A stretch of DNA of 64,000 nucleotides, taken from NCBI GenBank assembly GCA_949156565.1, contig CASCZI010000005.1, positions 62,001-126,000 of the forward strand, written 5' to 3'. Positions 37,870 through 54,101 of the stretch are shown here, piece after piece. The notes under the pieces are model-generated. The model did not search any database. It had not been told where the DNA came from and worked only from the letters and a program-made list of their open reading frames with translations. Position numbers and translations under genes: made by a program. How positions within the stretch are numbered: position 1 is the first letter of the stretch; every line of letters starts with the position of its first letter. Source of the stretch: an uncultured Alphaproteobacteria bacterium (GTDB taxonomy: Bacteria; Pseudomonadota; Alphaproteobacteria; Rs-D84).

Positions 37870-38526
37870 GTGATGATCAAAACAAAAATAATGGCATGTT
37901 TAATGGCGTTGATGCCGATTGCGGGTAACGCCGCCATTTTGTATCGGGTAGAACAGGTTAATATGCCGACAGATACGTCCGAGAATCAGTTTAACGATTC
38001 CCAGGCATTCGCCCGGCGGCATCGGTTCTATGTGGGTGGGATGTATAATTTTTCCATGTGGGCCGATGATGTCGATAATGATATTCGGGCCAAGGGTAAA
38101 CACACATCTTCGTATGAAGCGGTGGCGGGCATTCGATTGTTTGATGTGTTTAGGTTAGAAGCGAACTATATCCATACCGATGCAAAATGGGATTTATTTT
38201 CTTTGACGGGTGATGGGGCGATGATAAACGCCATTGTTGATGCCCGAATAGATAGTTTATATCGCGTTTTTTATACCCAACGCATTGTTCCCTATGTTGG
38301 GGGCGGAATGGGGATGTCGTGGAATACGGCCAAGAATGTTGATATCAAAGATAGTGTCAGTCCGATGATCGGTGCAATGGCCGGAATAGGAATTGAATTG
38401 GGGGAAAATTTCACCCTGGATTTTGGATATAGATATTTATATATGTTTGCCCCGAAATTTAGTGGGATGGATAATATGGCGCCGATTGCCCATCAATTGC
38501 GCGCGGGTGTGCGGGTAAATTTTTAA
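37870..38526 (+). CDS. Outer-membrane beta-barrel protein
   Basis: A 218-residue protein with signal peptide ending NA-A (about residue 21), beta-strand pattern including FTLDFGYRYLYMF and a terminal ...GVRVNF. It resembles P44/Msp or Opa-type surface barrels in layout. It is the second gene of the probable pair and ends four bases before the methyltransferase gene. Confidence 0.75.
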   Translation: MMIKTKIMACLMALMPIAGNAAILYRVEQVNMPTDTSENQFNDSQAFARRHRFYVGGMYNFSMWADDVDNDIRAKGKHTSSYEAVAGIRLFDVFRLEANYIHTDAKWDLFSLTGDGAMINAIVDARIDSLYRVFYTQRIVPYVGGGMGMSWNTAKNVDIKDSVSPMIGAMAGIGIELGENFTLDFGYRYLYMFAPKFSGMDNMAPIAHQLRAGVRVNF

Positions 38527-38530
38527 TATT

Positions 38531-39463
38531 ATGAAGACATGTCCATTTTTTGGTAAATGCGGCGGTTGCAAATATGATTTTGCGGCCGCCGATTATCGTC
38601 CGACCAAGGCGGGGGTTCTGCGCGGGATGGGGGTCACCGGTGGACCCATATGGGTGGCACCGGGCGAACGCCGGCGTGCAGAATTCTGTTTTGCGGGCGG
38701 GATGTTTGGTTTCTTTGCGCCCGGGTCCAAGGATATTGTACCGATTACCCATTGTCCCGGCATGGTGGATGGCATTAATGCGGTTTTGTCCGATATTGCG
38801 GCGTTGCCCATGGCGGGTGCGGGTGGGGCATTGGTGACCCAATGCGATAATGGAATTGATTTGGCCATTACGTCCGATGTATCGTATTTTCCGGCGGATT
38901 TTAAAAAAGCGGTGGAAAAATTGCCCTTGGTCCGGGTGACGTGGAATGGGTCTGTGGTGATTGAACGGGCGGTGCCCACGGTGACATTTGGCGACCGTGT
39001 GGTTCCGTATCCGGCGGGTGCATTTCTGCAACCGGGGGTATCGGGGGCGGATGCATTACGGGATTTGGTGGTGTCACGTGCCGCGGGTGCAAAAAAAGTT
39101 GCTGATTTATTTTGTGGGTTGGGAAATTTTACGTTCGCATTAAATGCCGATGGGTATGATGTTGTTGGAACAGGGACACGGCGTGATTTGTTTCGGCATC
39201 CGTTGATGGCGTGTCATTTGCGGCATTATGATTGTGTGGTTTTGGATCCACCGCGGGCCGGGGCCATGGCCCAATGTCGCGAATTATCGCGCAGTAATGT
39301 CGCCCGCGTGATTTATGTATCATGTAATCCGATTACATTTATGCGTGATCGTAAAATTTTAGAACATGGTGGATATCGCAAGGTGGAAATGATCCCGGTG
39401 GATCAATTTGTGGGCAGTGCACATTGGGAAATCTTTGCCGTTTTTGATAAAGATATTTCTTAA
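38531..39463 (+). CDS. RlmD/TrmA-family RNA uracil-C5 methyltransferase
   Basis: A 310-residue SAM-dependent methyltransferase of the TrmA/RlmCD class. Seen: the Fe-S Cys cluster CPFFGKCGGCKYDF at the N-terminus with a later HCPGM, the SAM loop VADLFCGLGNFTFAL, VLDPPRAGA and the catalytic Cys in YVSCNPITF. It lacks the N-terminal TRAM domain of RlmD and is about 100 residues shorter, as in reduced alphaproteobacterial forms. The target is likely a 23S rRNA uridine, but which one is uncertain. It follows the second barrel gene by four bases. Confidence 0.85.
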   Translation: MKTCPFFGKCGGCKYDFAAADYRPTKAGVLRGMGVTGGPIWVAPGERRRAEFCFAGGMFGFFAPGSKDIVPITHCPGMVDGINAVLSDIAALPMAGAGGALVTQCDNGIDLAITSDVSYFPADFKKAVEKLPLVRVTWNGSVVIERAVPTVTFGDRVVPYPAGAFLQPGVSGADALRDLVVSRAAGAKKVADLFCGLGNFTFALNADGYDVVGTGTRRDLFRHPLMACHLRHYDCVVLDPPRAGAMAQCRELSRSNVARVIYVSCNPITFMRDRKILEHGGYRKVEMIPVDQFVGSAHWEIFAVFDKDIS

Positions 39464-39593
39464 AAATACCTATTTCATACGTATGTGTACCAGTCACGGT
39501 CACATTGATTCCGGTATCTTTGCCGGGTGTCCGATTGACGTAATTGACGCCGTTTGGGGGGCAAATTCTGAATTATCAAAGGGGGGGGGATAA

Positions 39594-39620
39594 AAAACGC
39601 CGCCGGTTTCCCGGCGGTGT
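39594..39620 (+). terminator. Hairpin between the methyltransferase and the small gene
   Basis: Strong stem aacgccgccgg/ccggcggtgtt with a tttc loop but only a short T run; probably a terminator or RNA-stability hairpin. Upstream, 39484-39594 holds a 36-codon frame (MCTSHGHIDSGIF...) without a clear ribosome site, which I do not call a gene. Confidence 0.45.
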
Positions 39621-39660
39621 TTCCGAATGCCCGTGGAAAGGAAGGAAAGGAGAAAAAGAA

Positions 39661-39942
39661 ATGGGCATTCTAAACTTTTTTTATAAGGCCCAAAGTCCAG
39701 AGGAGAGAGAATGTAGGAGGGAGTCTGAATCTCTGGGCCTTAACAGATGCCGATGGCACCTGGTCGTGGGGAAGTTCGTTCCCTTTGACGAATCGAAATA
39801 TAATACATTAAAATTAATTTGTCAATATAAATTGTCAAAAAAAATTTTGGGTCAAATTAGGTTCGTGTTCCCATGGGGTAATATTGCCCAAAATTTAGGG
39901 GAAAATGGCGGATATGTAGCACTTTTAAGTCAAAATTCATAG
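39661..39942 (+). CDS. Small hypothetical protein
   Basis: A 93-residue frame started at the ATG on 39661 behind a very strong purine-rich ribosome site (ggaaaggagaaaaagaa). The sequence MGILNFFYKAQSPEERECR is charged and soluble; no family recognised. The next gene has a similar purine-rich leader (aaagaggagaagaaga), which suggests both came from the same source. Confidence 0.45.
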   Translation: MGILNFFYKAQSPEERECRRESESLGLNRCRWHLVVGKFVPFDESKYNTLKLICQYKLSKKILGQIRFVFPWGNIAQNLGENGGYVALLSQNS

Positions 39943-39999
39943 GAAATCGTACTTATGATTTCTGGTTGTATTTCATCCGGATTCCAATCATAATTAGAA

Positions 40000-40017
40000 C
40001 GCAGTCCTAGGACTGCG
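40000..40017. promoter_or_regulatory. Perfect 18-bp palindrome, candidate operator
   Basis: cgcagtcctaggactgcg reads the same on both strands and sits 22 bases before the start codon of an HTH regulator. That is the position expected for an autoregulatory operator. Confidence 0.55.
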
Positions 40018-40039
40018 GATAGAAAAAGAGGAGAAGAAG

Positions 40040-40288
40040 ATGACGCATGAAGATGTTTGGCGCGCGATAGAGCGCTTTGCCAAGGAACATAAGATGACAT
40101 GTTCTGGGTTGGCGAAGTGCAGCGGGCTGGATCCGACCACGTTTAACAGAAGTAAACGTTGGTCCAAAGAAGGGCAACCGCGATGGCCGTCGACAAACAG
40201 TATTTCAAAAATACTGTCATCGACAGGGGCCAAGATCGAGGACTTTACCAAGTATATCGATGAAGAAGATATGCAAGGTGGGGAATAA
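40040..40288 (+). CDS. HTH regulator lacking an S24 peptidase domain
   Basis: An 82-residue protein equal to the N-terminal DNA-binding domain of alphaproteobacterial S24-type (LexA/CI-like) repressors: an XRE-like helix-turn-helix (MTCSGLAKCSGLDPTTFNRS) followed by the conserved RWPSTNSISKILSSTGA. Full-length relatives run to 200 or more residues and end in a self-cleaving domain. Here a natural stop ends the protein after the HTH, so it could bind DNA but not be inactivated by RecA-dependent cleavage. A perfect palindrome lies just upstream. Confidence 0.75.
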   Translation: MTHEDVWRAIERFAKEHKMTCSGLAKCSGLDPTTFNRSKRWSKEGQPRWPSTNSISKILSSTGAKIEDFTKYIDEEDMQGGE

Positions 40289-40316
40289 GCCCATATGTCA
40301 TCCATGTCAACAACGC

Positions 40317-40350
40317 GCCGTTCCCAGTAAATTTAGGAACGGCGTTTTTG
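40317..40350 (+). terminator. Terminator of the HTH gene
   Basis: Nine-bp stem cgccgttcc/ggaacggcg with a 10-nt A/T-rich loop and five T. Confidence 0.8.
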
Positions 40351-40398
40351 TTTTAATATCTTGCGTGGGGGACAATTATAGGTCATAGTTATAATATT

Positions 40399-40815
40399 AT
40401 GTTGGATCATATTCGGGTTTTTAGTGCGGATGCAATTTGGCGTCAAATCTTGGGTGATTTGGGTGCGATCGTTTGTGATGAACAAACCGCGGATGTGAAT
40501 ATTGATACATTGGGATTGGTTTATCCCATAAATGCCATAGAATTAAAGGCGGCCATATTGGCCGCTATTGATGACGGGGCGTTGGTGCGTCAGATTTTTG
40601 GGCGGGATATTGTGTTATCAGATCTGCAAAAACGTATTGTTAAATTACTCTATAAATCTGGTGGGATGGGTGGTGCGGATTTGCGGCGGGCGATGGGTTA
40701 TGCGCCGGGGGCAGTGACGCATACGATTGACACGGCGATTTATCAAATGCGGCGTGTATATGGTCGTGATATCATTCAAAACAAAAACGGGGTGTACGTT
40801 ATTGGGCAATTATAA
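40399..40815 (+). CDS. Winged-helix (OmpR C-terminal-like) protein
   Basis: A 138-residue protein. The C-terminal ~75 residues look like an OmpR/PhoB effector domain, with the turn text TIDTAIYQMRRVYGRDIIQNKNGVYVIG typical of the recognition helix and wing. The N-terminal part may be a degenerate receiver but shows no phospho-acceptor motif that I can see. The birA start codon lies within its last codons, so the two are co-translated. Its targets are unknown. Confidence 0.55.
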   Translation: MLDHIRVFSADAIWRQILGDLGAIVCDEQTADVNIDTLGLVYPINAIELKAAILAAIDDGALVRQIFGRDIVLSDLQKRIVKLLYKSGGMGGADLRRAMGYAPGAVTHTIDTAIYQMRRVYGRDIIQNKNGVYVIGQL

Positions 40816-41467
40816 ATTAATTTCATTAAAACGTGTCAATAGCACCCAGACCCGCGCGCACGAGATGATTGCATCGGGAAACGCCACAGACGGCATGATT
40901 ATTATGGCCGATGTTCAGACCGCCGGGCATGGCCGACATTCACGTAAGTGGGTGTCCAATTCGGGGAATTTATATGTCAGTTTTATTTTTTCATCTTTGC
41001 GACGCGACCCGCGTTTGGCATATGTGGTGGCGGTGGCGGTTAAAGATGTTTTGAATTCATTTGGCATTCACGCAGGGATAAAATGGCCAAACGATATTTT
41101 AATTGATGGGGCCAAGGTATGCGGGATATTAATTGAATATATTGACCAATGGGTGGTTGTTGGCATTGGTATTAATATTCAATCGTGTCCCGATATTGCC
41201 AAGTATCAAACCACATATTTGGGGCGGTATGTGAATGTGACGCGCGCCGCATTGATGGGGCGATTGACCCAGGCACTGGATAAATGGCGTGGGTGCGATT
41301 TTGACACTGTTCGTGATGCATGGATGGCGTCTGCGGTTGGCATCGGGAAAAAAATTATGTATCATGATATCCCATCTGTTATATGTGGGATTGATGGGGA
41401 TGGGGCGTTAATTCTGGATCAGTCGGGTTCCCGGGTTCGCATTTATGGTGATGAAATAAGTTATTAA
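40802..41467 (+). CDS. birA: Biotin-[acetyl-CoA-carboxylase] ligase
   Basis: A 221-residue ligase that activates biotin to biotinyl-AMP and attaches it to the carboxylase carrier protein. Start taken as the TTG on 40802, overlapping the upstream gene by 14 bases; no nearer ATG fits the family. Seen: QTAGHGRHSRKW (biotin loop, a variant of GRGR), NLYVSF, KWPNDIL and VVGIGINI. It lacks the N-terminal HTH of the E. coli protein, so it is a ligase only. Confidence 0.88.
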   Translation: MGNYKLISLKRVNSTQTRAHEMIASGNATDGMIIMADVQTAGHGRHSRKWVSNSGNLYVSFIFSSLRRDPRLAYVVAVAVKDVLNSFGIHAGIKWPNDILIDGAKVCGILIEYIDQWVVVGIGINIQSCPDIAKYQTTYLGRYVNVTRAALMGRLTQALDKWRGCDFDTVRDAWMASAVGIGKKIMYHDIPSVICGIDGDGALILDQSGSRVRIYGDEISY

Positions 41468-41502
41468 ATATCATAGGATTTACGATATTAAGAAAAAAAG
41501 TA

Positions 41503-41531
41503 TTGACATTTATTTCAATTTATGGTATTAT
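41503..41531 (+). promoter_or_regulatory. Strong promoter ahead of the particle gene cluster
   Basis: Perfect TTGACA (41503-41508), a 17-base spacer and TATTAT (41526-41531), close to the sigma-70 consensus. The transcript would meet two intrinsic terminators within about 110 bases, before the first particle gene. Confidence 0.8.
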
Positions 41532-41561
41532 ACGTTTCAAGAAAAAGTAGAAATTTATGTG

Positions 41562-41587
41562 CGTCCGACCATGGGACGTTTTTTTTT
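41562..41587 (+). terminator. Leader terminator 1
   Basis: Stem cgtcc/ggacg (loop gaccatg) followed by nine T, about 30 bases after the promoter's -10 box. Confidence 0.75.
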
Positions 41588-41615
41588 ACTTTTTTTTAAA
41601 ATTAAGATCAAGATG

Positions 41616-41637
41616 ACGCGCCATGGGCGCGTTTTTT
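41616..41637 (+). terminator. Leader terminator 2
   Basis: Stem cgcgcc/ggcgcg with an atg loop and six T. It ends 24 bases before the hydrolase start codon. Confidence 0.8.
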
Positions 41638-41661
41638 ATTGCAACACAGGGATAATGCCAC

Positions 41662-42072
41662 ATGTCATTGAAATTAATATTGAACGACGATCCGTCGCGG
41701 GCCGTCATATATAAAATAGCACGTGTGATTTATGCCGAAACCGGTGGAGAATCGTTACGTGATGTCGAAGCGTTGGCATCAATGATTTTCAATATACACA
41801 CGGTTACGGGTCGTACATATGAAAATATTGTATCCGATCCGGATTTATTTGAATCTTTGAATAATGATTCTGAGCGTCATTCGTATTTAGATGTGGATGC
41901 GGGAACACGCGCGTTTGATATGTGTGTGCGTGTTACACAGACAATGATGCGGGGGCATTTACCCGACAGTGCAATGGGGGCCATGCGTTTTCATCGCACA
42001 GACCAATTGCCATCTTGGGCGGTTAGTCGCGGGTATATTTTGGAAACATCCCAATTAACATTTTATTTATAA
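41662..42072 (+). CDS. Phage-type cell-wall hydrolase (SleB/Hydrolase_2 family)
   Basis: A 136-residue protein with the family core IARVIYAETGGESLRDVEALASMIFN (catalytic Glu in YAETGGES) and a C-terminal segment FHRTDQLPSWA. The family includes spore-cortex lytic enzymes and phage endolysins. No signal peptide, so wall access would need the holin-like protein encoded 21 bases downstream. It is the first gene of the particle cluster, directly after two leader terminators. Confidence 0.75.
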   Translation: MSLKLILNDDPSRAVIYKIARVIYAETGGESLRDVEALASMIFNIHTVTGRTYENIVSDPDLFESLNNDSERHSYLDVDAGTRAFDMCVRVTQTMMRGHLPDSAMGAMRFHRTDQLPSWAVSRGYILETSQLTFYL

Positions 42073-42093
42073 AATAAGTTAAAAAGATAAAAG

Positions 42094-42315
42094 ATGAATA
42101 AAATTATACGTGGTGGCTGTCTGGCGGGACGACGTACCTATATTATTTCTGGGGTGGGAATTCTGTCGGCGGTGGGGGCATATCTGGTCGGAGATATTGA
42201 TATCTTTGGCATGCTGCAAACAATTTTTACGTTGGGTGGAATATATTTCTTGCGTAAATCAAGGGAACATAAAGGGGAAGATAATGGACAAGATTCCAGA
42301 AAAATTTCTGAATGA
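42094..42315 (+). CDS. Small membrane protein, possible holin
   Basis: A 73-residue protein with a basic N-terminus, two hydrophobic segments (about 17-34 and 38-54) separated by GDIDIFG and a charged tail, the general layout of a class II holin. It sits between the endolysin-like gene and the scaffold gene, overlapping the latter by 32 bases. Function is inferred from topology and position only. Confidence 0.5.
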   Translation: MNKIIRGGCLAGRRTYIISGVGILSAVGAYLVGDIDIFGMLQTIFTLGGIYFLRKSREHKGEDNGQDSRKISE

Positions 42316-42937
42316 AGATGGGACATTAAACACAGATGCATTAGTCAAATCGTATTCAGAACTTGAAAAGAAAATGGGTATGATGGTTTCTATACCACGC
42401 GATGATGATGCGGATGCGCGTGAAAAATTTAATCGGGCAATTGGTGTACCCAAAAGTGCCGATGAATATCCAACAAATCAGATGTTTGATGATGAAAATG
42501 TTCGTCAAAAATTTCTTGAAATCGGATTAACGTCACATCAAGTTGAGAAAATTTATCAAATTGCCGAAGAATTTTTAACACCGATATTGGGTGAAATTTT
42601 TCAAAAGCAAGACGAAGCCAGCGCGATGTCAGAATTAGAAAATTATTTCGGTGGTACAGATAAAATGCGTGATGCGTTGATGGCGATAAACACATTTGGT
42701 GAAAAGTTTTTACCCGCAGATGCATTTGATTCTTTGTGCACCACAGTCCAGGGAATCCAAAGCGTTTACAAAATGATGCAATCAATGGAACCACGTGTTA
42801 ATACAGATAAAAATGCAATTGAAAATTTATCAGATGCAGATTTACGTCGTATGATGCAAGATCCAAAATATTGGCGTGATCATGATCCCGAATACGTTCG
42901 AAAAATAGAAAACGGTTTTAAAAAATTGTATGCATAG
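42284..42937 (+). CDS. Capsid assembly scaffold protein
   Basis: A 217-residue acidic, helical protein started at MDKIPEKFLNEDG (ATG 42284, behind aagggg). The pattern IPEKFLNEDGTLNTDALVKS, then ELEKKMG, FNRAIGVPKSADEY and a C-terminal basic hook (YVRKIENGFKKLYA) matches scaffolds of T7-like and related short-tail phages, which guide procapsid assembly and then leave. The position two genes ahead of the capsid gene agrees. Confidence 0.75.
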   Translation: MDKIPEKFLNEDGTLNTDALVKSYSELEKKMGMMVSIPRDDDADAREKFNRAIGVPKSADEYPTNQMFDDENVRQKFLEIGLTSHQVEKIYQIAEEFLTPILGEIFQKQDEASAMSELENYFGGTDKMRDALMAINTFGEKFLPADAFDSLCTTVQGIQSVYKMMQSMEPRVNTDKNAIENLSDADLRRMMQDPKYWRDHDPEYVRKIENGFKKLYA

Positions 42938-43052
42938 AAAAAAATAATGTAAAAAAATATACTTTCTTCTTTACTAATTTTTGTGTTTTCGATAAAATAG
43001 AATCAAGAACAAAAAAATTTGTTCTAGGCATAAATGATAAAAGGAGAGAAGA

Positions 43053-43394
43053 ATGGCATTTACATTCTTGAAATCGTCCGCAAAGAAAGCAGCCGAAAAA
43101 TCGGCCGCAAAGCCAGCGGCGAAAAAGGCCCCTGCGGTAAAAAAACCGGCGGCAAAAAAAGTTACAGCGAAACCGGCCGCAAAAAAACCGGTTGCGAAAA
43201 AAGCAGCCGTAAAACCGGCGGCAAAAAAAGTTGCAGCGAAACCAGCCGCGAAAAAACCGGTTGCGAAAAAAGTAGCCGCAAAACCGGCCGCGAAAAAAGT
43301 TGCAGCCAAAAAGCCAGTTGCAAAGAAAGCACCGGCAAAAAAAACAGTTGCAAAAAAAGCACCGGCGAAAAAGCCGGCGGCAAAAAAGAAATAA
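43053..43394 (+). CDS. Lys/Ala/Pro-rich histone-H1-like protein
   Basis: A 113-residue protein made almost wholly of PAAKK, PVAKK and VAAK repeats after a short MAFTFLKSS start. Such tails bind DNA non-specifically (AlgP, Hc2 and H1-like proteins). A strong ribosome site (aaaggagagaag) and a terminator of its own frame it. It sits between the scaffold and capsid genes, an unusual place for a nucleoid protein, so it could condense packaged DNA, or be a host gene caught between them. The repeats are also visible at DNA level and may vary in number. Confidence 0.75.
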   Translation: MAFTFLKSSAKKAAEKSAAKPAAKKAPAVKKPAAKKVTAKPAAKKPVAKKAAVKPAAKKVAAKPAAKKPVAKKVAAKPAAKKVAAKKPVAKKAPAKKTVAKKAPAKKPAAKKK

Positions 43395-43398
43395 ATTA

Positions 43399-43422
43399 AT
43401 CCCGCGTATGCGGGATTTTTTA
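43399..43422 (+). terminator. Terminator of the histone-like gene
   Basis: Stem aatcccgc/gcgggatt with a gtat loop and six T, directly after the stop. Confidence 0.85.
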
Positions 43423-43485
43423 ATAGATTAATCACGATAGGGGGCATGTATATTTTTAATCCCCAGTGATTGTTTAGATTAATTT

Positions 43486-43548
43486 TTCAATCGCATATAA
43501 CGTTGTGGCGTCATATTTATTTCAGATGCACATTTTTATGCGATTGAA
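43486..43548 (+). promoter_or_regulatory. Structured leader of the capsid gene
   Basis: The 310-bp gap before the capsid gene holds an 11-bp perfect inverted repeat (ttcaatcgcat at 43486-43496, atgcgattgaa at 43538-43548) and, near 43660, the palindrome cgacatttgtcg. No gene is seen. A separate promoter or RNA control for the capsid gene is plausible. Confidence 0.4.
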
Positions 43549-43704
43549 TTTTTAATTAATACACATGATGGACAATCCGATATTCGGACCCATGAAATTA
43601 TTGATTTGACGGCGCAACGATAAATTGCATAACCGGCGAACAATTATGTTGTGCGGCGACATTTGTCGCATCGTTTATTTCATAAACAAATAAAGGAAGT
43701 TTAA

Positions 43705-44526
43705 ATGTCTGTTTCAATAGACCAAGTATTTGTAAAACAATTCGAAGCGGATGTTCATTTGGCATATCAACAGATGGGCACCAAATTGCGTTCGACAGTA
43801 CGCAGTAAATCAGGCGTCGTAGGTATGTCTACGACATTTCAAAAGGTTGGCCGCGGTACCGCCAGCACGAAATCGCGTCATGGTATTGTACCGGTTATGA
43901 ATTTGAATCACGAACCGGTGGAATGCGTCTTGCAAGATTATTATGCCGGTGATTGGGTTGATGCATTGGATGAATTAAAGACCAATGTTGATGAACGTCG
44001 TGTGGTTGCATCGGCCGGGGCATATGCATTGGGGCGCAAAACCGACGAATTGATTGTCGATGCAATGAATATGGCCACTGTATCCACCGGTGATTATACA
44101 ACAATCTTGAGCAAGGATTTGATTCTGGGGGCGGTTGAAAAGTTGAACGAAAAAGATGTTCCAGATGATGGACGTCGATTTGCCGTGGTTGGTGTTCAAC
44201 AATGGAATCAATTGCTGGGGATTGAAGAATTTGTATCTGCCGATTATGTCGGTGATGAAAAACCGTTCTTGAATGGGGCCGAAGCGCGTAAATGGTTGGG
44301 CATCACATGGGTGTTGTACAACGGTTTACCAGTAGATGGGACAGAACGTGATTGCTTTGTCTATCATACGTCGGCGATTGGTCATGCATGCGGTCAAGAA
44401 GTTAAATCGGATATCACATGGCATGGGGAACGTGCGGCACATTTTGTTAGCAACAGCATGTCCCAGGGTGCGGTTTTGATTGATGGTGATGGGATCGTAC
44501 GTTTGAAATGCAAAGAAAATGCATAA
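43705..44526 (+). CDS. Phage major capsid protein
   Basis: A 273-residue protein of the capsid class found with short-tail phages of Alphaproteobacteria; it begins MSVSIDQVFVKQFEADVHLAYQQ, a common opening for this family, and shows the even, domain-spanning pattern with no signal or membrane segment. A good ribosome site (aaaggaag) precedes it. Position after the scaffold and before a small capsid-linked gene supports the call. Length is short compared with T7 gp10 (about 345). Confidence 0.8.
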   Translation: MSVSIDQVFVKQFEADVHLAYQQMGTKLRSTVRSKSGVVGMSTTFQKVGRGTASTKSRHGIVPVMNLNHEPVECVLQDYYAGDWVDALDELKTNVDERRVVASAGAYALGRKTDELIVDAMNMATVSTGDYTTILSKDLILGAVEKLNEKDVPDDGRRFAVVGVQQWNQLLGIEEFVSADYVGDEKPFLNGAEARKWLGITWVLYNGLPVDGTERDCFVYHTSAIGHACGQEVKSDITWHGERAAHFVSNSMSQGAVLIDGDGIVRLKCKENA

Positions 44527-44553
44527 AATTAAAATAACCAAAGGAATAAATAA

Positions 44554-44808
44554 ATGGCTTTTCAGAACAAAAATTTGTCGGTCATCGCATACGCGAACGG
44601 GTTTACGCTGTGGCATTACAGTGCAAATGAAACGTTGGCAACGATTTCTGCGACGGGTTATTTTAATGATGTCAAAACACTGATGAATGTCGGTGATATT
44701 GTGATCATCAATGGATCAGACAATACAACCATTAAAAAGATCAATATTACAGAACCGGGTAATGTAACGGTACAGGCCTTGGCGGGGACAGCGTCTTCGG
44801 CATCATAA
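44554..44808 (+). CDS. Small capsid-associated phage protein
   Basis: An 84-residue beta-rich protein (MAFQNKNLSVIAYANGFTLW...) typically found directly after the capsid gene in alphaproteobacterial phage clusters; possibly a decoration or head-stabilising protein. The function is inferred from position. Ribosome site aaagga is 12 bases ahead. Confidence 0.6.
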   Translation: MAFQNKNLSVIAYANGFTLWHYSANETLATISATGYFNDVKTLMNVGDIVIINGSDNTTIKKINITEPGNVTVQALAGTASSAS

Positions 44809-44821
44809 GGTATCAATGCAA

Positions 44822-44855
44822 TATTGGGGAATAGACATGATGTCGTTCCCCAATA
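44822..44855 (+). promoter_or_regulatory. Perfect 9-bp hairpin between capsid and tail genes
   Basis: tattgggga (44822-44830) pairs with tccccaata (44847-44855). A second, shorter stem (aaggc/gcctt, 44869-44889) followed by eight T holds the ribosome site of the next gene in its loop. Together they could lower read-through or translation of the tail genes. Confidence 0.45.
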
Positions 44856-44894
44856 CACAAGTGATTTTAAGGCAAGGGGGGAGGCCTTTTTTTT

Positions 44895-45413
44895 ATGTTA
44901 ACGAAAATAGATTTATGTTCGATGGCGCTCTTAAAATTGGGCGAGGCACCGATTCAATCATTGACGGATGATACGGCTGCGGCCCAATTGGGGCGTACAA
45001 TGGCCGATCCGGTGATTGAAACGCTGTTAACGATGCATCCATGGCGGTTTGCATGCAAAATGTATGATTTAAAGAAAAACACCGAAGAATATCTGCAGTT
45101 GCCATCTGATATCTTACGTGTTTTGAAATGCGATGGTCAAATTGTGGGTGACAAAATTTATTCCAATGCAGATCACGTGACCATATGGGCAATTGCGCGC
45201 ATGCCGGTAGAAACGTTCCCCAGTTATTTTGTTACATTGGTGGTGACAAAATTAGCCATGGAATTTTGTATTCCCTTGTTGGGGGATCAGACGGTAATGA
45301 GGATGTTATTAGCCCTGTATGAATCAGAACTGCAGACGGCAAAATTTATTGACAGTACAATTTCATCATCAACGCCAATTGCGGATTTTTCATTGATCAG
45401 TTCGCGGTTTTGA
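44895..45413 (+). CDS. Tail tubular protein A (T7 gp11-like)
   Basis: A 172-residue protein with the family text MALLKLGEAPIQSL, DDTAAAQLGRTMADPVIETLL and HPWRFACK near the N-terminus, which identify the gatekeeper/adaptor ring between portal and nozzle in podoviruses. The gene starts directly after an eight-T run and precedes the tail tubular B gene by 25 bases. Confidence 0.8.
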   Translation: MLTKIDLCSMALLKLGEAPIQSLTDDTAAAQLGRTMADPVIETLLTMHPWRFACKMYDLKKNTEEYLQLPSDILRVLKCDGQIVGDKIYSNADHVTIWAIARMPVETFPSYFVTLVVTKLAMEFCIPLLGDQTVMRMLLALYESELQTAKFIDSTISSSTPIADFSLISSRF

Positions 45414-45438
45414 TAAAACACATGGGGGTATGTGAACA

Positions 45439-47151
45439 ATGGGAAATTTTATAAAAACACAAAATTCGTTTGCCAGTGGTGAGGTGTCGCCAGAATTTCT
45501 GGCCCGTGAAGATATCAATGGTTTATCACGATTAGAAAATATGGATGTATTGGGGGCCGGTGGATTACGTCGACGACGGGGATTGGCACCGGTGGCGGAC
45601 CTTTATGATGCGATGCGCCTTATTCCATTTATTGTGTCCGAAGACCAACGGTATATCTTGGTGCTAAGTGCGGGACATTTAGAGGTGTACAGTGGATCGA
45701 CCATGTATCAAGATCTATTGGTGCCGTGGAAGGATAAAGATTTACCACAACTGCAATACGCCCAACGATTTGGCACCATTATTTTTGTGCATCCAGATTA
45801 TCAACCCCATGTTTTATCCAAAGGGGAAACCCGGTTCGAGTTAAATGTGTTTAACTTTGCGATCAATGATAATATGACCAAAAATATTCCGTTTATGCGG
45901 TTTGATGATGCAGACGGAGTTAAAATCACCCTGACACCAAGCAACAGCGGCAGTAATTTTGCCACGTTAACAACAAATAAACCCTTTTGGCAAAAGAGCA
46001 ATGTTTATGGACGTTTATTTATGTTGGGGATGCAATGGGTTGTTACAGAATATGTTAGTCCAACTGTCGTTGTGGCGGGTGTGAATGGTGGTTTTAATAT
46101 GCCCAGTAATCCGATTAGTGACTGGAAAGAAGCGGCATTTAGTAATCGCCGTGGATGGCCATGCAGCATTACGTTTCACCAAAATCGCTTGGTCTTTGGT
46201 GGGTCAAAATCATGGCCCAGTGGGGTGTGGATGTCACAGGTGGGGCGCCACAATAATTTTAGTGTGGGGACCGGTTTAGATGACGAAGCAATATTTATCA
46301 CACTGATATCTGAACAGCGTCAACAGATTTGCACTGTGGTCAGCAGTGATAACTTGCAAATTCTAACATCGGTTGGTGAATGGGCCATTTCCAGCAAGCC
46401 ATTGACACCATCATCGGTAGACATAAAGCAGCACACAGATGTAGGCAGTGTTTCATCCCGTTATCTGCCGCCCCAAAAGATCGAAGGATCGACCGTATTT
46501 ATTTCTAAGAATGGCAAAGATATTCGCGAATTAATCTTGGATGAATTGGGGGAAAATTACAGCGCCACAGATTTATGCGCCCTGTCAAAGCATTTAATGC
46601 AAGATCCGATTGATTTGGCATATAACGATGATACGCATCAGTTGTTTGTCGTCATGGCCAATGGTGATATGGCGGTATTAAACAAGAATTCATCACTGGG
46701 GATTTCTGCATGGAGTGTATATAAAACCCAGGGAAAGTTTTTAAGTGTGACGGTTATGGATGGCGAAACATATGTTGCGGTAAAGCGCGAAGATGAATAC
46801 AAATTAGAAAAATTTTCAGATACATCAATGATTGATGGTGGGGAATTTGGATTTTCGTTCACGGTATCATCTTTGCCGTTACGGTCCGGGGGGCATGCCC
46901 CCAAAAAAGTTCGGGTACGTAAAATCGGCCTGCGGGTATTAAAAACAAAATCTGTTTTTATCAATGGGCGTCGTGTCGCATTACCCAATGAAGTATATGC
47001 ACCCGAACATCCAGGATATTCAGGAGACATTAGCGTCGATTTCTTAGGGACAAATCCCGATACGATGCAGCCCCTCTGGACGGTGCAGAGCAGTGACGCA
47101 TTACCCGTAACGATTTTATCAGTAACCACCAGTGGTTGGTATTTAATCTAA
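45439..47151 (+). CDS. Tail tubular protein B (T7 gp12-like nozzle)
   Basis: A 570-residue, beta-rich protein opening with QNSFASGEVSPEF and RLENMDVLGAGGLRRRRGL, the conserved start of podoviral nozzle proteins. Further family text is FHQNRLVFGGSKSWPSGVWMSQVG in mid-protein. It is shorter than T7 gp12 (about 794) but complete. Together with tail tubular A it forms the short tail through which DNA leaves the particle. Confidence 0.85.
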   Translation: MGNFIKTQNSFASGEVSPEFLAREDINGLSRLENMDVLGAGGLRRRRGLAPVADLYDAMRLIPFIVSEDQRYILVLSAGHLEVYSGSTMYQDLLVPWKDKDLPQLQYAQRFGTIIFVHPDYQPHVLSKGETRFELNVFNFAINDNMTKNIPFMRFDDADGVKITLTPSNSGSNFATLTTNKPFWQKSNVYGRLFMLGMQWVVTEYVSPTVVVAGVNGGFNMPSNPISDWKEAAFSNRRGWPCSITFHQNRLVFGGSKSWPSGVWMSQVGRHNNFSVGTGLDDEAIFITLISEQRQQICTVVSSDNLQILTSVGEWAISSKPLTPSSVDIKQHTDVGSVSSRYLPPQKIEGSTVFISKNGKDIRELILDELGENYSATDLCALSKHLMQDPIDLAYNDDTHQLFVVMANGDMAVLNKNSSLGISAWSVYKTQGKFLSVTVMDGETYVAVKREDEYKLEKFSDTSMIDGGEFGFSFTVSSLPLRSGGHAPKKVRVRKIGLRVLKTKSVFINGRRVALPNEVYAPEHPGYSGDISVDFLGTNPDTMQPLWTVQSSDALPVTILSVTTSGWYLI

Positions 47152-47173
47152 ATAAAACATAAAGGAGAAAAAA

Positions 47174-47521
47174 ATGGGACAGGTCGTATCCGATGTAACA
47201 GAAATTTTGGATTATAAAAAAGCCAAAAAAGAAGCCAAAAAAGAAAAAAATCAAATTATGCAACAGATTGCAGAAGATGAAAAAAATAAAACAAATCTAG
47301 TTAAAAAGACTTTGGCGGCCCAGCGTGCCAGATATGGTGCTGCCGGTATGAGTGGCAAAGGCATGACCGAAGAGGCGGTGTTAAAACGTCTGCGTGAAGA
47401 AACAGAAGAACCCTTTAACGAGAAAAAAAGAACAAATTTGAACAAATACAACAGTATCAATGTTAAAAAACCAAATCTGTTTAAAAAATTGGTATCGCGG
47501 TTTGAAGAATTGGTGGGATAA
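47174..47521 (+). CDS. Small Lys-rich phage protein, possible internal virion protein
   Basis: A 115-residue, highly charged helical protein with a conserved-looking RARYGAAGMSGKGMTEEAVLKRL centre. In related clusters a small protein of this kind follows the nozzle gene. The text suits an internal or ejection protein, but this is inferred. Ribosome site aaaggaga. Confidence 0.5.
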   Translation: MGQVVSDVTEILDYKKAKKEAKKEKNQIMQQIAEDEKNKTNLVKKTLAAQRARYGAAGMSGKGMTEEAVLKRLREETEEPFNEKKRTNLNKYNSINVKKPNLFKKLVSRFEELVG

Positions 47522-47553: not shown

Positions 47554-48189
47554 ATGATGACAGATTACTTTGAATTTCTGGACGCGTGGAACGAATTGTT
47601 GGGGCATAAAACGCCGGTTCATCACCAAAAGATTATGGAATTTTTGGTCAATGTATTGGATCAGCCCCCACGCCGTGGGTTATTAACGGCATTTCGGCAT
47701 TCGGGAAAATCGACCGTTGTGGGGATTTTTGCCGCAGCAACATTGTATATGCGGCCACAAACCCGTATTATGATTTTGTCCGCAGAAAGTGTCTTGGCAT
47801 CACGTATGGTCACGCATGTGCGGCATATTCTGGAAAACCACCCCATGTGCACCCATATGGTGCCAGAGGTGAAAAAGGAATGGGGGACACATAAAATTAC
47901 GATTAATCGGCCCATTGGGATACGCGAACCATCGGTCATATGCCAGGGTATTCATGGTAATATCACCGGTGCACGGGCCGATTTAATTATTTGTGATGAT
48001 GTCGAAGTTCCCAATACCAGCAATACCGCCGCCAAGCGATCGGCCCTGCGCGAGAGGTTACGTGAATTGGATTTTATTTTGGGGCCGGGCGGGGCAATGA
48101 TCTATATTGGGACGCCACACACGATGGATACCATTTATCGCACGGATGATATCAAAGAAGATGGCACAGATATTGTGCCATCATTGTAA
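47554..48189 (+). CDS. Terminase large subunit, N-terminal ATPase fragment
   Basis: A 211-residue fragment holding the whole packaging ATPase: Walker A-like AFRHSGKSTVVG (about residues 46-57), Walker B LIICDDVE (about 146) and the coupling motif MIYIGTPHT (about 180). It ends at a stop soon after DTIYRTDDIKEDGTDIV. The nuclease half lies 3.3 kb downstream at 51518 on the same strand. The text TDIV at the end and SDMV at the start of the second half look like the same positions, so little or nothing is missing. Confidence 0.8.
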   Translation: MMTDYFEFLDAWNELLGHKTPVHHQKIMEFLVNVLDQPPRRGLLTAFRHSGKSTVVGIFAAATLYMRPQTRIMILSAESVLASRMVTHVRHILENHPMCTHMVPEVKKEWGTHKITINRPIGIREPSVICQGIHGNITGARADLIICDDVEVPNTSNTAAKRSALRERLRELDFILGPGGAMIYIGTPHTMDTIYRTDDIKEDGTDIVPSL

Positions 48190-48194
48190 ATAAA

Positions 48195-48878
48195 CTATTT
48201 TTTTGTGGCCACAGGCGGTCGGTTCGCGGGCGCATCTTTGATACTGCTGACAAAAATACGCAGGCGGGATAACAATTCTTCGCCCGCCGTTCCAAACATT
48301 GGCAGGTATGTTTCGTATTCGGGCATGTCCGCCTGAAGCTGGGCGCGGGATCGATCCGACAATGGGGCATCCAACAGGTCGGTTGCCACTTTCCATAAAA
48401 AATAGGCGCGGTATGTTTGGGACACCAAATCCCATTTTTCCAAAAGTTCTGGTTTTTTGGCCAACGCGGCGCGAATGCCAACCAACCATTCTTCGCCGAA
48501 TTTACGTACAACCTTTAATGATTGAATGCGTGTCAATCCAGATTGATCAGGTGTGAATTCATGAATACCGTTTTCCAATTCGCGCCATTCATCCGGGGTT
48601 AGGGGGATAGTTGCGGCGGTGTCGGCCATCATCCCGCCATAGGGTAATAAATCGCGGTTGATTGAATCCATCGGGGTTCGCCCCGATCGCAGGTTTTCAA
48701 TATGCAACGCCAATAATTTTCCCGTGGGTAATTTACGTAATTCATCCATGACGTCCGGTGTCGCTTCGGCCATAAAGACACGATTGACCGCGGCCCACCC
48801 GCCAAAAATGACATGTTGTTGACGGTACAGGTTTAATAACCGTTGCGCTGTTATAACTGTGTCTTGATTCATCCCCAT
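48195..48878 (-). CDS. Hypothetical protein within the terminase insert
   Basis: A 227-residue soluble, helical protein (MGMNQDTVITAQRLLNLYRQQH...; the Met at residue 3 is an alternative start). It ends in a Pro/Lys tail. No family recognised. It lies on the minus strand with the double-HTH gene and dnaB, between the two terminase halves, and its stop is five bases from the end of the first half. Confidence 0.55.
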   Translation of the reverse strand: MGMNQDTVITAQRLLNLYRQQHVIFGGWAAVNRVFMAEATPDVMDELRKLPTGKLLALHIENLRSGRTPMDSINRDLLPYGGMMADTAATIPLTPDEWRELENGIHEFTPDQSGLTRIQSLKVVRKFGEEWLVGIRAALAKKPELLEKWDLVSQTYRAYFLWKVATDLLDAPLSDRSRAQLQADMPEYETYLPMFGTAGEELLSRLRIFVSSIKDAPANRPPVATKK

Positions 48879-48895
48879 GTCCCCCCGTGTGTTCG

Positions 48896-49903: not shown

Positions 49904-49924
49904 CGTCTGATCTCCTTGGTATTT

Positions 49925-49971: not shown

Positions 49972-51519
49972 TTATAAATCGTCGGGAACGGCATCCATGT
50001 CGGGCATATCCACGGGCGTGTCGTATGATGATGGCGGGGTGGATGCGGCCGGCGTGTCAAATGAATTGGCACCGCGGGCCTCAAATTCATCAAGATTATC
50101 GAATAAACTGTAATCGCCAAAGAATGCCATATGCACGGTTTCGGGACGTCCATGACGGTTTTTACCGATGATAACATCGGCCTTGCCACGGGCACGTTCC
50201 AGCCGTTTTTCCCACGATTCAACCATTGTGGTGTTGGTGGTGTTGGACAGACGCTGGGACGGATCACGATTTTCCAGGTAATATTCTTCGCGGTACGTAA
50301 ACATGACCAAGTCGGCGTCCTGTTCGATGGATCCCGATTCGCGCAGGTCGGCCAATTGGGGGCGTTTATCATCGCGGGATTCAACACTGCGCGATAACTG
50401 GGACAGGGCGATGACCGGCACATCCAATTCCTTGGCCAACATTTTAAGGCCCCGGGTAATTTCGGAAATTTCTTGGACCCGGTTATCGTTGCGTCGGCCC
50501 CCGGGTGATGTCATTAATTGCAGGTAATCGATAACAATTAATGCAATGCCGCCCGATTTCCGTGCCAGACGCCGCGCACGCGTACGCAGCATGGGAACCG
50601 ACATCCCGGGCGTATCATCGATATACAACGGAACCTTGCCGATGGCGGCACTATACTGGGACATTTTTAAGAAGTCTTCGTCCGTCAAGTTTCCTTCGCG
50701 CATGGCGGATGCCGGCACCTTGGATTGCGAAGACAAAACACGCGCAGCCAATTGGGATGCGGACATTTCAAGACTAAAAAATGCGACCGCCCCCTTGTAC
50801 TTTGGGTTGGCGCGACCATATAAAATGGCGTTGGCGGCGTTAAAGGCAATATTCATTGCCAATGTTGTTTTTCCCATCGCCGGGCGGCCCGCGATAATGA
50901 TCAAATCACTGTGGTGCAGGCCACTGATGGATTTATCCAATGCATCAAGTCCCGTTGTCAAACCCGATAGTTTGCCGTCGGCCTTGTATGCAATTTCCGC
51001 CTCTGCCAGGGCATCGCCCAACGCGGCGGCGATGGATGTAACCTCTCGCTCGGCGGCGCCGGCGGTCGATAGATCAAAGAGTTTTTGTTCCGCCACCTCT
51101 ATCTGGGATGTGACGGGATTGTCCAAATCTTCGACATAGGCGGCGTCTGTGATCGATTGACCGATATTAATTAATTCACGTCGCAGGGCGTTTTCATACA
51201 CGATACGGCCGTATTGATCAACGTTGACGACCGTTGCGCCGGCACCGGCCAATTGCGTTAGGTAATCCACCCCGCCCACAGTGTCCAGGGTACCTTGCTG
51301 TTCAAGGTAATTTTTGGCCGTAATGATGTCAAATGGAATACCGGCCGAAAATTGACGCAACGCCAGACGATAAATTTCTTGGTGGGCGGGATGTGAAAAG
51401 TGTTCGGCCGTTAAAAATTCCGATACCCGTTCCAGTGCCCGGTTATTCATTAAAACCGCGGCCAGAACCGCCTGTTCGGCGTCCAGGTTTGTCGGTAAAG
51501 TTTTGGGAGTAAAGTCCAT
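49972..51519 (-). CDS. dnaB: Replicative DNA helicase
   Basis: A 515-residue hexameric helicase that unwinds the replication fork. Start chosen at MDFTPKTLPTN (ATG 51517-51519); the open frame runs 40 codons further but without family text. Seen: the N-terminal DAEQAVLAAVLMN, Walker A AGRPAMGKTTLA, FFSLEMSA, Walker B LIVIDYLQLM and DLRESGSIEQDADLVMF with KNRHG near the end. It looks like a normal chromosomal DnaB with a long acidic tail, not a phage helicase. Its start codon overlaps, on the other strand, the start codon of the terminase nuclease half, so its promoter must lie inside that gene. Confidence 0.95.
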   Translation of the reverse strand: MDFTPKTLPTNLDAEQAVLAAVLMNNRALERVSEFLTAEHFSHPAHQEIYRLALRQFSAGIPFDIITAKNYLEQQGTLDTVGGVDYLTQLAGAGATVVNVDQYGRIVYENALRRELINIGQSITDAAYVEDLDNPVTSQIEVAEQKLFDLSTAGAAEREVTSIAAALGDALAEAEIAYKADGKLSGLTTGLDALDKSISGLHHSDLIIIAGRPAMGKTTLAMNIAFNAANAILYGRANPKYKGAVAFFSLEMSASQLAARVLSSQSKVPASAMREGNLTDEDFLKMSQYSAAIGKVPLYIDDTPGMSVPMLRTRARRLARKSGGIALIVIDYLQLMTSPGGRRNDNRVQEISEITRGLKMLAKELDVPVIALSQLSRSVESRDDKRPQLADLRESGSIEQDADLVMFTYREEYYLENRDPSQRLSNTTNTTMVESWEKRLERARGKADVIIGKNRHGRPETVHMAFFGDYSLFDNLDEFEARGANSFDTPAASTPPSSYDTPVDMPDMDAVPDDL

Positions 51520-52369
51520 GTCCGATATGGTATATAAAAAATTTACTTTTTCAACGCCTTTTTTACGGGGGTATAAACAATTACGCATTCCGATTGTCGA
51601 TAACGACGGAAATCCCGCGTGGCCCGATGTTTTCCCCATGGAAAAAATAGAAGAATTGCGTCAAACCGTGGGTGCACGTCATTTTTCGGCCCAGATGATG
51701 TTAAATTACGTGGCGGCGGACCGAACACGGTTGGATCCGGGGGCGTTGCATGTCTATGATCATGAATTTGATGTCCGCACGGGACGTATTGGCGATGTCA
51801 TCATAACCGGGGCGGCGGTTTATTGGGATCCCGCCGGGGGACGTGCCCGTGGCGATGCCAGTGTGTGCGTCTTGATTTATCGTGATGACAAGAACAGGCG
51901 TGTTTTTGTTCATGACATTATGTACATGATTGTTGACGATAACGATCTGCATCCGTTGGGTCATCAATGTGATCAGGTGTTGGATTTTCTGGGGCGTCAT
52001 GGATTGCGTCGGGTGGCGGTTGAAACAAATGGTATTGGCAATGCATTGCCGGAAATCATGCGTGACACCGCCAAGCGGCGTGGTATGGCCATTCATGTAA
52101 CCAAAGTGACGAATTCACAAAACAAAGAAACACGTATTTTGGATGCGATTGAACCCATTTTAAGCACGGGACGTCTGTACATGCACAATCGGGTCCGGAC
52201 CAGTTTGCTGTGTGCGGAAATGATGGAATGGACCCCGATTGGTGGGGCGGTGCATGATGATGGGTTGGATGCATTGGCGGGGGCGATACGGATAACGCCC
52301 GCCCCGGTGCATGCCGGTGGCATTGGGCCCCCGCGGGTTTATAACGCCACGACCAATTTCAAAATTTAA
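51518..52369 (+). CDS. Terminase large subunit, C-terminal nuclease fragment
   Basis: A 283-residue fragment with the RNase-H-like nuclease that cuts packaged DNA. The three acidic metal ligands are all visible: Asp in VYWDPAGG (about residue 104), Glu in VAVETNG (about 168) and Asp in HDDGLDALAGA (about 253). The text before them (TPFLRGYKQLRIPI, AWPDVFP) is what normally follows the ATPase in an unsplit terminase. The ATG on 51518 has its own ribosome site (gggag at 51505-51509) inside the dnaB gene, so separate translation is possible. Confidence 0.8.
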   Translation: MSDMVYKKFTFSTPFLRGYKQLRIPIVDNDGNPAWPDVFPMEKIEELRQTVGARHFSAQMMLNYVAADRTRLDPGALHVYDHEFDVRTGRIGDVIITGAAVYWDPAGGRARGDASVCVLIYRDDKNRRVFVHDIMYMIVDDNDLHPLGHQCDQVLDFLGRHGLRRVAVETNGIGNALPEIMRDTAKRRGMAIHVTKVTNSQNKETRILDAIEPILSTGRLYMHNRVRTSLLCAEMMEWTPIGGAVHDDGLDALAGAIRITPAPVHAGGIGPPRVYNATTNFKI

Positions 52370-52390: not shown

Positions 52391-53614
52391 ATGCAAAACA
52401 ATCTGCAATATCTTTATAAAAAAGCCCTGGATATGCGGGCCCCGTGGATCAATCGGTGGGACGCGGCGATGCGTTACACCATGCCAACGGCGGATGATGA
52501 CGCGGCGATGCTGTTTGATGCGACGGCGGCGGACGCGGTGGATAATCTGGCGGCATCGATTTACACCCTGTTGACGCCGCCGGAATCGTTGTGGTTAAAT
52601 CTGGTCCCCGAAAGTCCGGATTCCCCCGATGCCGCCGCGGCCACCGATGCATTACGGGCGCATTTAAATGATTCAAATTTTTATACGACCATTCATCAAT
52701 GCTATCTGGATCTGGTGGTTTTGGGCACCGCATGTTTGTTTATGTCGGAAAATCCGATTGGGGCAGATTCGGCGTTTTCATTTACTGCCATTCCCATGTC
52801 AGATATTGCCATTTTACCCGGCGCAGTGTTTCACACCACGTCAATGCCGGCACGCGAAGTAATGGAACGTTATCCCACATGGACGCCGCCGGCCAATATT
52901 CGTGATGCCATGCGCGATAATCCAGACATGCCATTGCGTTTGGTCCAAAGTTTGGTGGGCACCGAATTTACCGCATGGTTGGATACAGGCGGGGATATAG
53001 AAAATAATATCGTATCGCGTGGGACATTTGAAACCAATCCGTATATTATCTTTCGTTGGTCTGTGGCCAGTGGTGAAATCTATGGGCGGGGACCGGTACT
53101 ACGTGCATTGCCCGATATTAAAACCGCGAACAAGGTTGTGGAACTGGTACTGAAAAATGCGACGATTGCGGTGTCTGGCATCTGGCAGGCCGACGATGAT
53201 GGTGTTATTAACCTGGCCAATATTAATTTGACGCCGGGTGCCATTATCCCAAAGGCAGTGGGGTCATCGGGATTGACGCCATTAACATCAGGCGCAGATT
53301 TTGACGTATCCCAGATTATATTAAAAGATCTGCGTGAACGGATTCGGCATGCGTTGTTGGCAGATCGGTTGGGATTGTTGAGTGAAAAAGAAATGACAGC
53401 AACCGAAATTATGGCGCGTAATGCCGATATGATGCGGATCTTGGGGGCAACATATGGGCGTTTGTTACATGAATTTATTCGGCCCATGGTAGATCGGGGA
53501 TTACAGATTTTGTCACGTCGTGGGTTGATTGAAAAAATATCCCTGCACAGCGATGCCGAATTAAAATACATTGCGCCGATTGCCCAAATGGTGCGCGAAG
53601 AAAGTTTAATTTAA
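52391..53614 (+). CDS. Portal (head-tail connector) protein
   Basis: A 407-residue podovirus-type connector, the 12-mer ring at the capsid vertex through which DNA enters and leaves. Seen: the N-terminal YLYKKALDMRAPWINRWDAAMRYTMP pattern, NLAASIYTLLTPPESLWLNL, then YGRGPVLRALPDIKTANKV and the C-terminal TATEIMARNADMMRILG. It is shorter than T7 gp8 (about 536). It starts 21 bases after the terminase fragment, behind aaagga. Confidence 0.85.
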   Translation: MQNNLQYLYKKALDMRAPWINRWDAAMRYTMPTADDDAAMLFDATAADAVDNLAASIYTLLTPPESLWLNLVPESPDSPDAAAATDALRAHLNDSNFYTTIHQCYLDLVVLGTACLFMSENPIGADSAFSFTAIPMSDIAILPGAVFHTTSMPAREVMERYPTWTPPANIRDAMRDNPDMPLRLVQSLVGTEFTAWLDTGGDIENNIVSRGTFETNPYIIFRWSVASGEIYGRGPVLRALPDIKTANKVVELVLKNATIAVSGIWQADDDGVINLANINLTPGAIIPKAVGSSGLTPLTSGADFDVSQIILKDLRERIRHALLADRLGLLSEKEMTATEIMARNADMMRILGATYGRLLHEFIRPMVDRGLQILSRRGLIEKISLHSDAELKYIAPIAQMVREESLI

Positions 53615-53637
53615 ATATAAAAACAAAAGGAATGATC

Positions 53638-53844
53638 ATGCCAGACAATAATAGTGTGGCGCACGAATATGCGCGCACATTTGCAAATCCATCGGGGCGG
53701 GCGGTCATCGCCCATTTGCGGACCATGACGGTTGAACGGTGGTTGGGCCCAGATGCCGGCGACGCCCAGTTACGCATGCTCGAAGGGCAACGTGCATTGG
53801 TTCATCATATTGAACAAATGATAACGCGGGGACAAACCACATGA
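53638..53844 (+). CDS. Bbp19-like small phage protein
   Basis: A 68-residue protein (MPDNNSVAHEYARTFANPSG...; ATG 53638) ending in the LEGQRALVHHIEQMI pattern seen in Bbp19-type proteins that follow portal genes in many phages. Role unknown. Its stop overlaps the start of the next gene. Confidence 0.6.
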   Translation: MPDNNSVAHEYARTFANPSGRAVIAHLRTMTVERWLGPDAGDAQLRMLEGQRALVHHIEQMITRGQTT

Positions 53845-54101
53845 ATACCAAAGAACAAACATTTATGGGATTTGTCGATATCCTGCGCGAGAGTTGGTTT
53901 TTGATCGCGTTTATTGCCGGTATGGTCTATTGGGTTGCACGCCAGGATTCGTCCCTGGGGGAAATCGAGCGCAATGAACATCGTATTACGTCACTGGAAA
54001 ACAGAACGACAATTTTAGAATCGGGCATCGGTCAGTTGCAGTTGAAAATCGATGGCATCAAAGAAGATGTGACATTAATCAAAAGTGCCGTGATTAAATA
54101 G
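53841..54101 (+). CDS. Small membrane-anchored coiled-coil phage protein
   Basis: An 86-residue protein with one membrane helix (about 16-33, SWFLIAFIAGMVYWVA) and a coiled-coil tail (ITSLENRTTILESGIGQLQLKIDGI), the layout of XhlA/holin-associated proteins. It overlaps the Bbp19-like gene by four bases. The frame continues open for 57 codons past its TAG stop. Confidence 0.55.
   Translation: MNTKEQTFMGFVDILRESWFLIAFIAGMVYWVARQDSSLGEIERNEHRITSLENRTTILESGIGQLQLKIDGIKEDVTLIKSAVIK

Follow-up and report, generated by a model that had tools for sequence, protein, structure and literature searches.

The window, that is, the whole stretch of 64,000 nucleotides analysed here, contains a cluster of podovirus-like particle genes headed by a cell-wall hydrolase gene, with a compact leader directly in front of it (Table 1). 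The placement of the window in a genus rests on its relatives: the records of close ones are named “Candidatus Enterousia,” a taxon that the literature assigns to the order Rs-D84 and describes as having genomes of about 1 Mb (PMC12306168). The Lys/Ala-rich product encoded between the scaffold and capsid genes resembles the chlamydial histone HC2 and is possibly the DNA-condensing part of the particle. No recognised tail fibre is encoded in the cluster itself. The two halves of the terminase large subunit (47554–52369) are split by three opposite-strand genes, encoding a 227-aa protein, a regulator with two HTH motifs, and a DnaB helicase. This split arrangement is kept in the genus, and the halves are separate in the order relatives too.

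Table 1. Features of the particle locus in the window and further copies of the leader in the same genome (contig:position).
Feature	Position	Strand	Remarks
XRE82, 82-aa Cro/C1-type HTH protein	40040..40288	+	candidate regulator
b138, 138-aa winged-helix protein	40399..40815	+	candidate dedicated regulator; genus-specific
Promoter, sigma-70-type, extended −10 (TG before −10)	41503..41531	+	direct reading: −35 TTGACA, 41503–41508; 17-base spacer; −10 TATTAT, 41526–41531
Conserved initially transcribed region	41538..41563	+	genus consensus CATmAAnAGnAnAGATTnTGTCC, from comparison of leaders
Intrinsic terminator 1	41561..41587	+	6-bp stem, GCGTCC-GACCATG-GGACGT, 41561–41579; nine T, 41579–41587; varied base pairs in relatives
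Intrinsic terminator 2	41615..41637	+	8-bp stem, GACGCGCC-ATG-GGCGCGTT, 41615–41633; six T, 41632–41637
Ribosome-binding region, purine-rich, 5' of the hydrolase ATG	41647..41655	+	direct reading
Cell-wall hydrolase / endolysin, first gene	41662..42072	+	start ATG at 41662; PF07486 weak; phrog_938
Particle operon	42094..47521	+	small membrane protein (holin-like), scaffold, HC2-like, capsid, tail tube, nozzle, others
T7-type scaffold	42284	+	in particle operon
Lys/Ala-rich HC2-like protein	43053 (43053–43394)	+	between scaffold and capsid genes
Major capsid	43705	+	in particle operon
Tail tube	44895	+	in particle operon
Nozzle	45439	+	in particle operon
Terminase large subunit, ATPase half	47554..48189	+	
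Terminase large subunit, nuclease half	51503..52369	+	
Portal (PF12236), Bbp19-like, coiled-coil protein	52391..54101	+	
Leader copy	C2:20764		heads MuF-like protein with Tlde1 domain
Leader copy	C4:114672		heads MuF-like gene with GH108
Leader copy	C7:33224		heads MuF-like gene with phage lysozyme, frame interrupted
Leader copy	C3:112741		heads lone T7-type tail-fibre gene

The capsid gene was found in 55 of the 59 genus genomes, the window's included, almost always as a single copy and at 78–85% identity in intact copies; it is also present in most genomes of the other families of the order. The order of the genes in the cluster is the same across the genus. Thus, the cluster has the single-copy, syntenic, and taxon-wide occurrence that characterises gene transfer agents (GTAs). 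Such clusters are catalogued in IMG/VR as short viral contigs of ~4–21 kb (loci L318–L368), which appear to be chromosomal and vertically inherited.

The earlier note on this DNA had described a near-consensus promoter followed by two T-tailed hairpins upstream of the hydrolase gene. All three lie where it had placed them, and the promoter is constitutive in appearance. The T-tract of terminator 1 is followed by AC and then by eight further T (41590–41597). The same note had pointed to the sequence catg in both hairpins, which is indeed present in the window; as a shared feature, however, it was found in only 2 of 71 leaders and is therefore a coincidence of the window's species. Kissing or shared catg loops were ruled out on the same count. 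In addition, the A-rich start of the RNA is able to pair with the T-tract and the bases beyond terminator 1, forming a long extended hairpin (41540–41597). Among the leaders, this pairing around hairpin 1 had a mean of −5.5, compared with −4.6 for swapped pairs (sd 0.25), and it is not put forward as a general feature, since it covaries and exceeds the swapped pairs in just one part of the genus.

The combination of elements exceeds what is expected by chance. Single promoter-like sites are not rare in the window DNA, as judged from dinucleotide shuffles; the promoter of the leader, with 11 of 12 matches, ties for the best among 25 such sites in positions 38000–46000. Terminator-like sites are over-represented in the same interval (27 versus 8.5 in shuffles), so one terminator alone is weak evidence. 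The 64-kb window has a single case of a promoter followed by two terminators, and a separate strict scan covering 156 kb of the window's genome found two. Scanning 879 kb on both strands gave 40 such sites; the particle leader accounts for 35 of them, and the remaining five include no clear leader. In addition, none of 200 shuffled sequences folds as well as the predicted leader RNA (z = −4.0).

Conservation of the leader in the genus and the order

The leader precedes the hydrolase gene in the window and in 40 relatives that have this gene. In a second collection, which contributed 38 new sequences, the promoter was present at 67 of 67 hydrolase-gene loci; TTGAC, the spacer, and the A and T of the −10 element were also search criteria there, yet no locus was lost by them. 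All 79 distinct genus leaders have TTGAC, a 17-base spacer, and TAnnnT, positions 2 (A) and 6 (T) of the −10 element being invariant. Two terminators were detected by the strict scan in 71 of the 79, compared with 0.15 of 79 in dinucleotide shuffles. The stems themselves are diverse, with 46 and 64 distinct sequences among the 71 leaders and with G-C, C-G, A-T, and T-A all occurring at identical stem positions; arms swapped between genomes pair at just 44–47%, whereas pairing within a genome is 100% by selection. Since the stems vary and still pair, structure is what is conserved. Conservation of sequence begins about 10 bases 5' of the −35 element and takes in the first ~25 transcribed bases; no conserved sequence was found in the 79 leaders more than ~10 bases upstream of the −35 hexamer. 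The initially transcribed region is a candidate loading site.

The end of stem 2 lies 16–48 nt from the hydrolase ATG, so that no other promoter fits in between and transcription can hardly reach the hydrolase gene except by read-through. An AGG, GGA, or GGG is located no more than 18 nt from this ATG in 76 of the 79 leaders. The terminators were rejected as the end of the transcript of the upstream gene birA, because the promoter lies between them and birA and because the leader keeps its place at the hydrolase gene in genomes with a displaced birA: in L065, L075, and L079, birA is 1.6–2.2 kb away. In the relatives, the promoter and terminators described by the earlier note are thus kept as a unit with the particle operon and not with birA. 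Attenuation by a leader peptide was also rejected, as an ATG or GTG frame running past T-tract 1 exists in only 30 of 79 leaders. No leader of this kind was detected by the strict scan at the capsid relatives in IMG/VR (~60% identity).

A homologous leader heads the particle operon in ten genomes of the order's other families. There the promoters are, e.g., TTGACA-17-TATAGT, and the initially transcribed region is of the CAACTAATGGGATAATTGTGTCC type. At least one clear terminator was found in nine of these ten leaders; several have only one, and one has none. In addition, GTTC-N7-GTTC, with one mismatch allowed, is found in seven of the ten at one exact place abutting the −35 element, where 1.2% would be expected. 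We take this motif to be the LexA site of alphaproteobacteria. In the genus leaders it was found once among 79, which is the chance level. None of the 59 genus genomes has the LexA DNA-binding domain, which most order relatives do have. The presence of box and LexA in the relatives, and the loss of both from the genus, suggest that SOS control of the promoter was probably ancestral and was later lost in the genus, while the promoter and terminators were retained. Having lost LexA and its box but not the terminators, the genus offers a natural experiment on which of the two layers of control is important.

The fixed LexA box and the distribution of LexA, together with the candidate regulators that adjoin the cluster, are what would be expected if a DNA-binding protein (b138 or XRE82, and LexA in the relatives) switched initiation, with the terminators insulating the operon from birA or mopping up leakage. 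However, the terminators lie downstream of the promoter and would block it as well as birA, and the genus leaders lack any conserved element well upstream of the −35 hexamer. We consider control at the promoter unlikely.

Among the candidate regulators, b138 was found in 42 of the 47 genus genomes searched. It is missing from the order relatives and therefore cannot be the ancestral antiterminator. It is also absent from G020 and G023, two near-complete genomes without the capsid gene, and from three capsid-bearing genomes that are fragmented or cut at this place. The AlphaFold2 model of b138 (pLDDT 85) has a C-terminal winged helix; its best match in the PDB is PrrA (E 4e-3), a weak likeness to the DNA-binding domains of response regulators. 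In G078 and G091, XRE82 has homologues of S24-repressor length close to the capsid gene; in G032, a leader and lysozyme gene are immediately preceded by a paralogue. The XRE82 family has 1–6 copies per genome in G000 and its relatives, some of them beside lysozyme or MuF loci.

Dispersed copies of the leader layout

Genomes were searched with a 64-position model of the promoter and first transcribed bases, for which the particle leader is the top match in ~49 genus genomes. According to this search and the available genome stretches, the window's genome contains four further leader copies, all at phage-type genes (Table 1). In other genomes, the layout likewise heads tail fibres, lysozymes, and MuF-like genes at unlinked sites. 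All 11 MuF-like genes with an assembled 5' end have it, two of them with one terminator only by the strict scan. Two of the sites in other genomes are MuF-like genes of the order relatives G061 and G065, with a transcribed motif similar to the one in the particle leader of those relatives.

The MuF-like proteins match the MuF domain PF04233 with E-values of 5e-4 to 1e-5, under the curated cut-off, and the phrog_115 minor head protein with 7e-9 to 7e-11. Their C-terminal domains are exchangeable: Tlde1, phage lysozyme, and GH108 occur in one genome, and separate C-terminal cassettes exist as well. Loose C-terminal cassettes and small membrane proteins lie near the fusions L219 (G000:C2:19559–20704), L261 (C4), and L258 (C7), surroundings that resemble polymorphic toxin loci with immunity genes.

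Model matches that lack terminators were found in front of host genes, among them rho and lipoprotein genes, which shows that the promoter itself is of an ordinary kind. The promoter of the rho gene (L223, L399) is very close to the core promoter of the leader. In G034, one model match with a terminator-like site precedes a gene without a recognisable link to the particle. A MuF gene with the leader is present in G020, a genome that has neither the particle nor b138; this counts against b138 being the general factor. The position of the layout in front of unlinked tail fibres, lysozymes, and MuF-like genes indicates that it marks a dispersed regulon, and the leader is probably a common switch that would hold particle-type genes off until the polymerase passes the stop signals.

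The leader could instead yield a product of its own, a trans-acting short RNA of ~50 nt formed by the conserved 5' part and the terminator hairpin, with read-through being incidental. A terminator preceded by ~25 unpaired, conserved bases is indeed typical of small RNAs. Nevertheless, a second terminator would then be superfluous, every leader closely adjoins the 5' end of a particle-type gene, and the first 25 transcribed bases of the particle leader are not common to the MuF and tail-fibre leaders. Furthermore, no Rfam family came near its gathering score in a search with the leader. We regard this explanation as highly improbable.

Proposed control of the particle genes

The earlier note had proposed that particle production is off by default and depends on an antiterminator in the manner of lambdoid late operons. 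The conservation of the leader with the operon, its recurrence at unlinked genes, and the lack of space for a later promoter are consistent with this proposal, which we retain as the best reading rather than as established. No recognisable Q or GafA/GafY-type antiterminator was found in the genomes. For Q, no protein exceeded the PF06530 cut-off in 40 genomes, Q families being diverse and PF06530 being the one family searched. DUF6456, which we take to mark GafA and GafY, was detected in 0 of 40 genomes of the genus and order, the Caulobacter control being positive. A second NusG, that is, a paralogue of the RfaH or LoaP type, was not found either: each of 37 genomes has one NusG, and none was found in three. 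The sigma-dependent pause element of the lambdoid type (−10-like, in the first transcribed bases) did not hold up, as it is not enriched in the genus leaders (48 of 79 versus a shuffled mean of 43) or in the order leaders (4 of 10 versus 5.9 in shuffles).

Constitutive attenuation, in which the terminators throttle a strong promoter to low, unregulated expression or to rare bursts confined to a small number of cells, would need no antiterminator. It would agree with the absence of the searched families and with a constitutive-looking promoter that has nothing conserved upstream, and low leaky expression would suit a lethal particle. For such an outcome, however, a weak promoter would suffice, without two terminators and a 25-nt transcribed motif being kept across the order, and the layout would not be expected to recur at unlinked genes that are expected to be made together. 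Hence, we give this explanation only a small chance.

From a strong ordinary promoter without an upstream site, and from terminators kept by compensatory changes at unlinked genes that would be needed together, we infer a trans factor that acts at termination. Judging from the conservation and geometry of the leader, the covarying stems, the dispersed copies, the homologous leaders in the order, and the precedent of GafZ in Caulobacter, we favour, at somewhat better than even chances, a conditional-termination switch in which a trans-acting factor relieves both terminators and turns on the operon and the unlinked genes. Points against this reading are that no member of the searched antiterminator families was found, that the MuF and tail-fibre leaders differ from the particle leader in the first 25 transcribed bases, that G020 carries a MuF leader in the absence of particle and b138, and that several order leaders have just one clear terminator and one has none. 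Transcription from the near-consensus, housekeeping-type promoter would start ~35 bases downstream of the start of the −35 element, and in the default state termination would be efficient, with nearly all RNA polymerase stopping at terminator 1 (~50 nt) or terminator 2 (~100 nt). The factor, presumably a protein, would be loaded at the conserved region formed by the promoter and the first 25 nt and would allow the polymerase to pass both terminators. Read-through would then activate the podovirus-like particle operon; at the unlinked tail-fibre and MuF-effector or lysozyme genes, leaders with this layout would have the same effect, so that all of them may be made together.

A wider and more tentative picture, which we think less probable than the switch itself, is that the small-genome gut alphaproteobacteria of the order Rs-D84 possess a podovirus-like particle that has been domesticated, and that its structural operon, its unlinked tail fibres, and the wall-degrading cargo fused to MuF belong to a single regulon under a new type of antitermination. 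This control would have outlived LexA in Enterousia, and the particle may deliver MuF cargo into competitors rather than, or besides, DNA. If the proposed switch is right, the leader would be a sequence tag for finding the parts of a dispersed phage-derived particle across an order of uncultured gut bacteria.

Comparison with known systems

No description of the present particle or leader was found in the literature searched. The particle most similar in content is the FpGTA of Faecalibacterium, which has been presented as the first GTA-like element of podovirus type (PMC12946183); it likewise has a podovirus-like gene set and is near-universal in a gut genus. Its tail-fibre and lysis genes are located in a second locus, whereas those described here are dispersed singly, each with its own leader. 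FpGTA also belongs to a different phylum, and no regulatory leader is described in the searched text of that paper. In the MuF polymorphic toxins, reported from temperate phages of Firmicutes, a MuF-like N-terminal part is similarly joined to C-terminal domains that are toxic or hydrolytic and can be exchanged (PMC5576092). In contrast, the genes identified here are alphaproteobacterial, lie outside recognisable head operons, encode wall-degrading C-terminal domains, and are preceded by a tandem-terminator leader.

With regard to control, the lambdoid late promoter pR', served by Q, is also a constitutive-looking sigma-70 promoter with a short leader and one or more terminators, followed by lysis and head genes. 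Those genes are read by read-through only, as the genes behind the present leader would be. The present leader differs in having two terminators directly 5' of the first gene, in lacking the sigma-pause element, and in being repeated at several unlinked sites; no protein above the PF06530 cut-off was found in the genomes here. In the Caulobacter GTA, which is controlled by GafY, GafZ, and IHF, antitermination by GafZ lets the polymerase pass a terminator and turns the cluster on (PMC11150451). That particle is likewise domesticated and alphaproteobacterial, with a terminator between the promoter and most of the cluster, and both systems have unlinked accessory genes; antitermination in trans, shown in Caulobacter, would operate here as well. 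Unlike that system, the 40 genomes of the genus and order have no DUF6456 protein, and the leaders have no conserved palindrome between −35 and −10: TTGAC...GTCAA occurs in some of them only, and most of the spacer is of low information. Moreover, intrinsic hairpins are present here instead of 150-bp repeats, and the genes are podovirus-like rather than siphovirus-like. If conditional antitermination resembling that by lambda Q or Caulobacter GafZ does keep the particle genes off by default, they would represent, beside Caulobacter, another domesticated particle controlled at termination and not at initiation.
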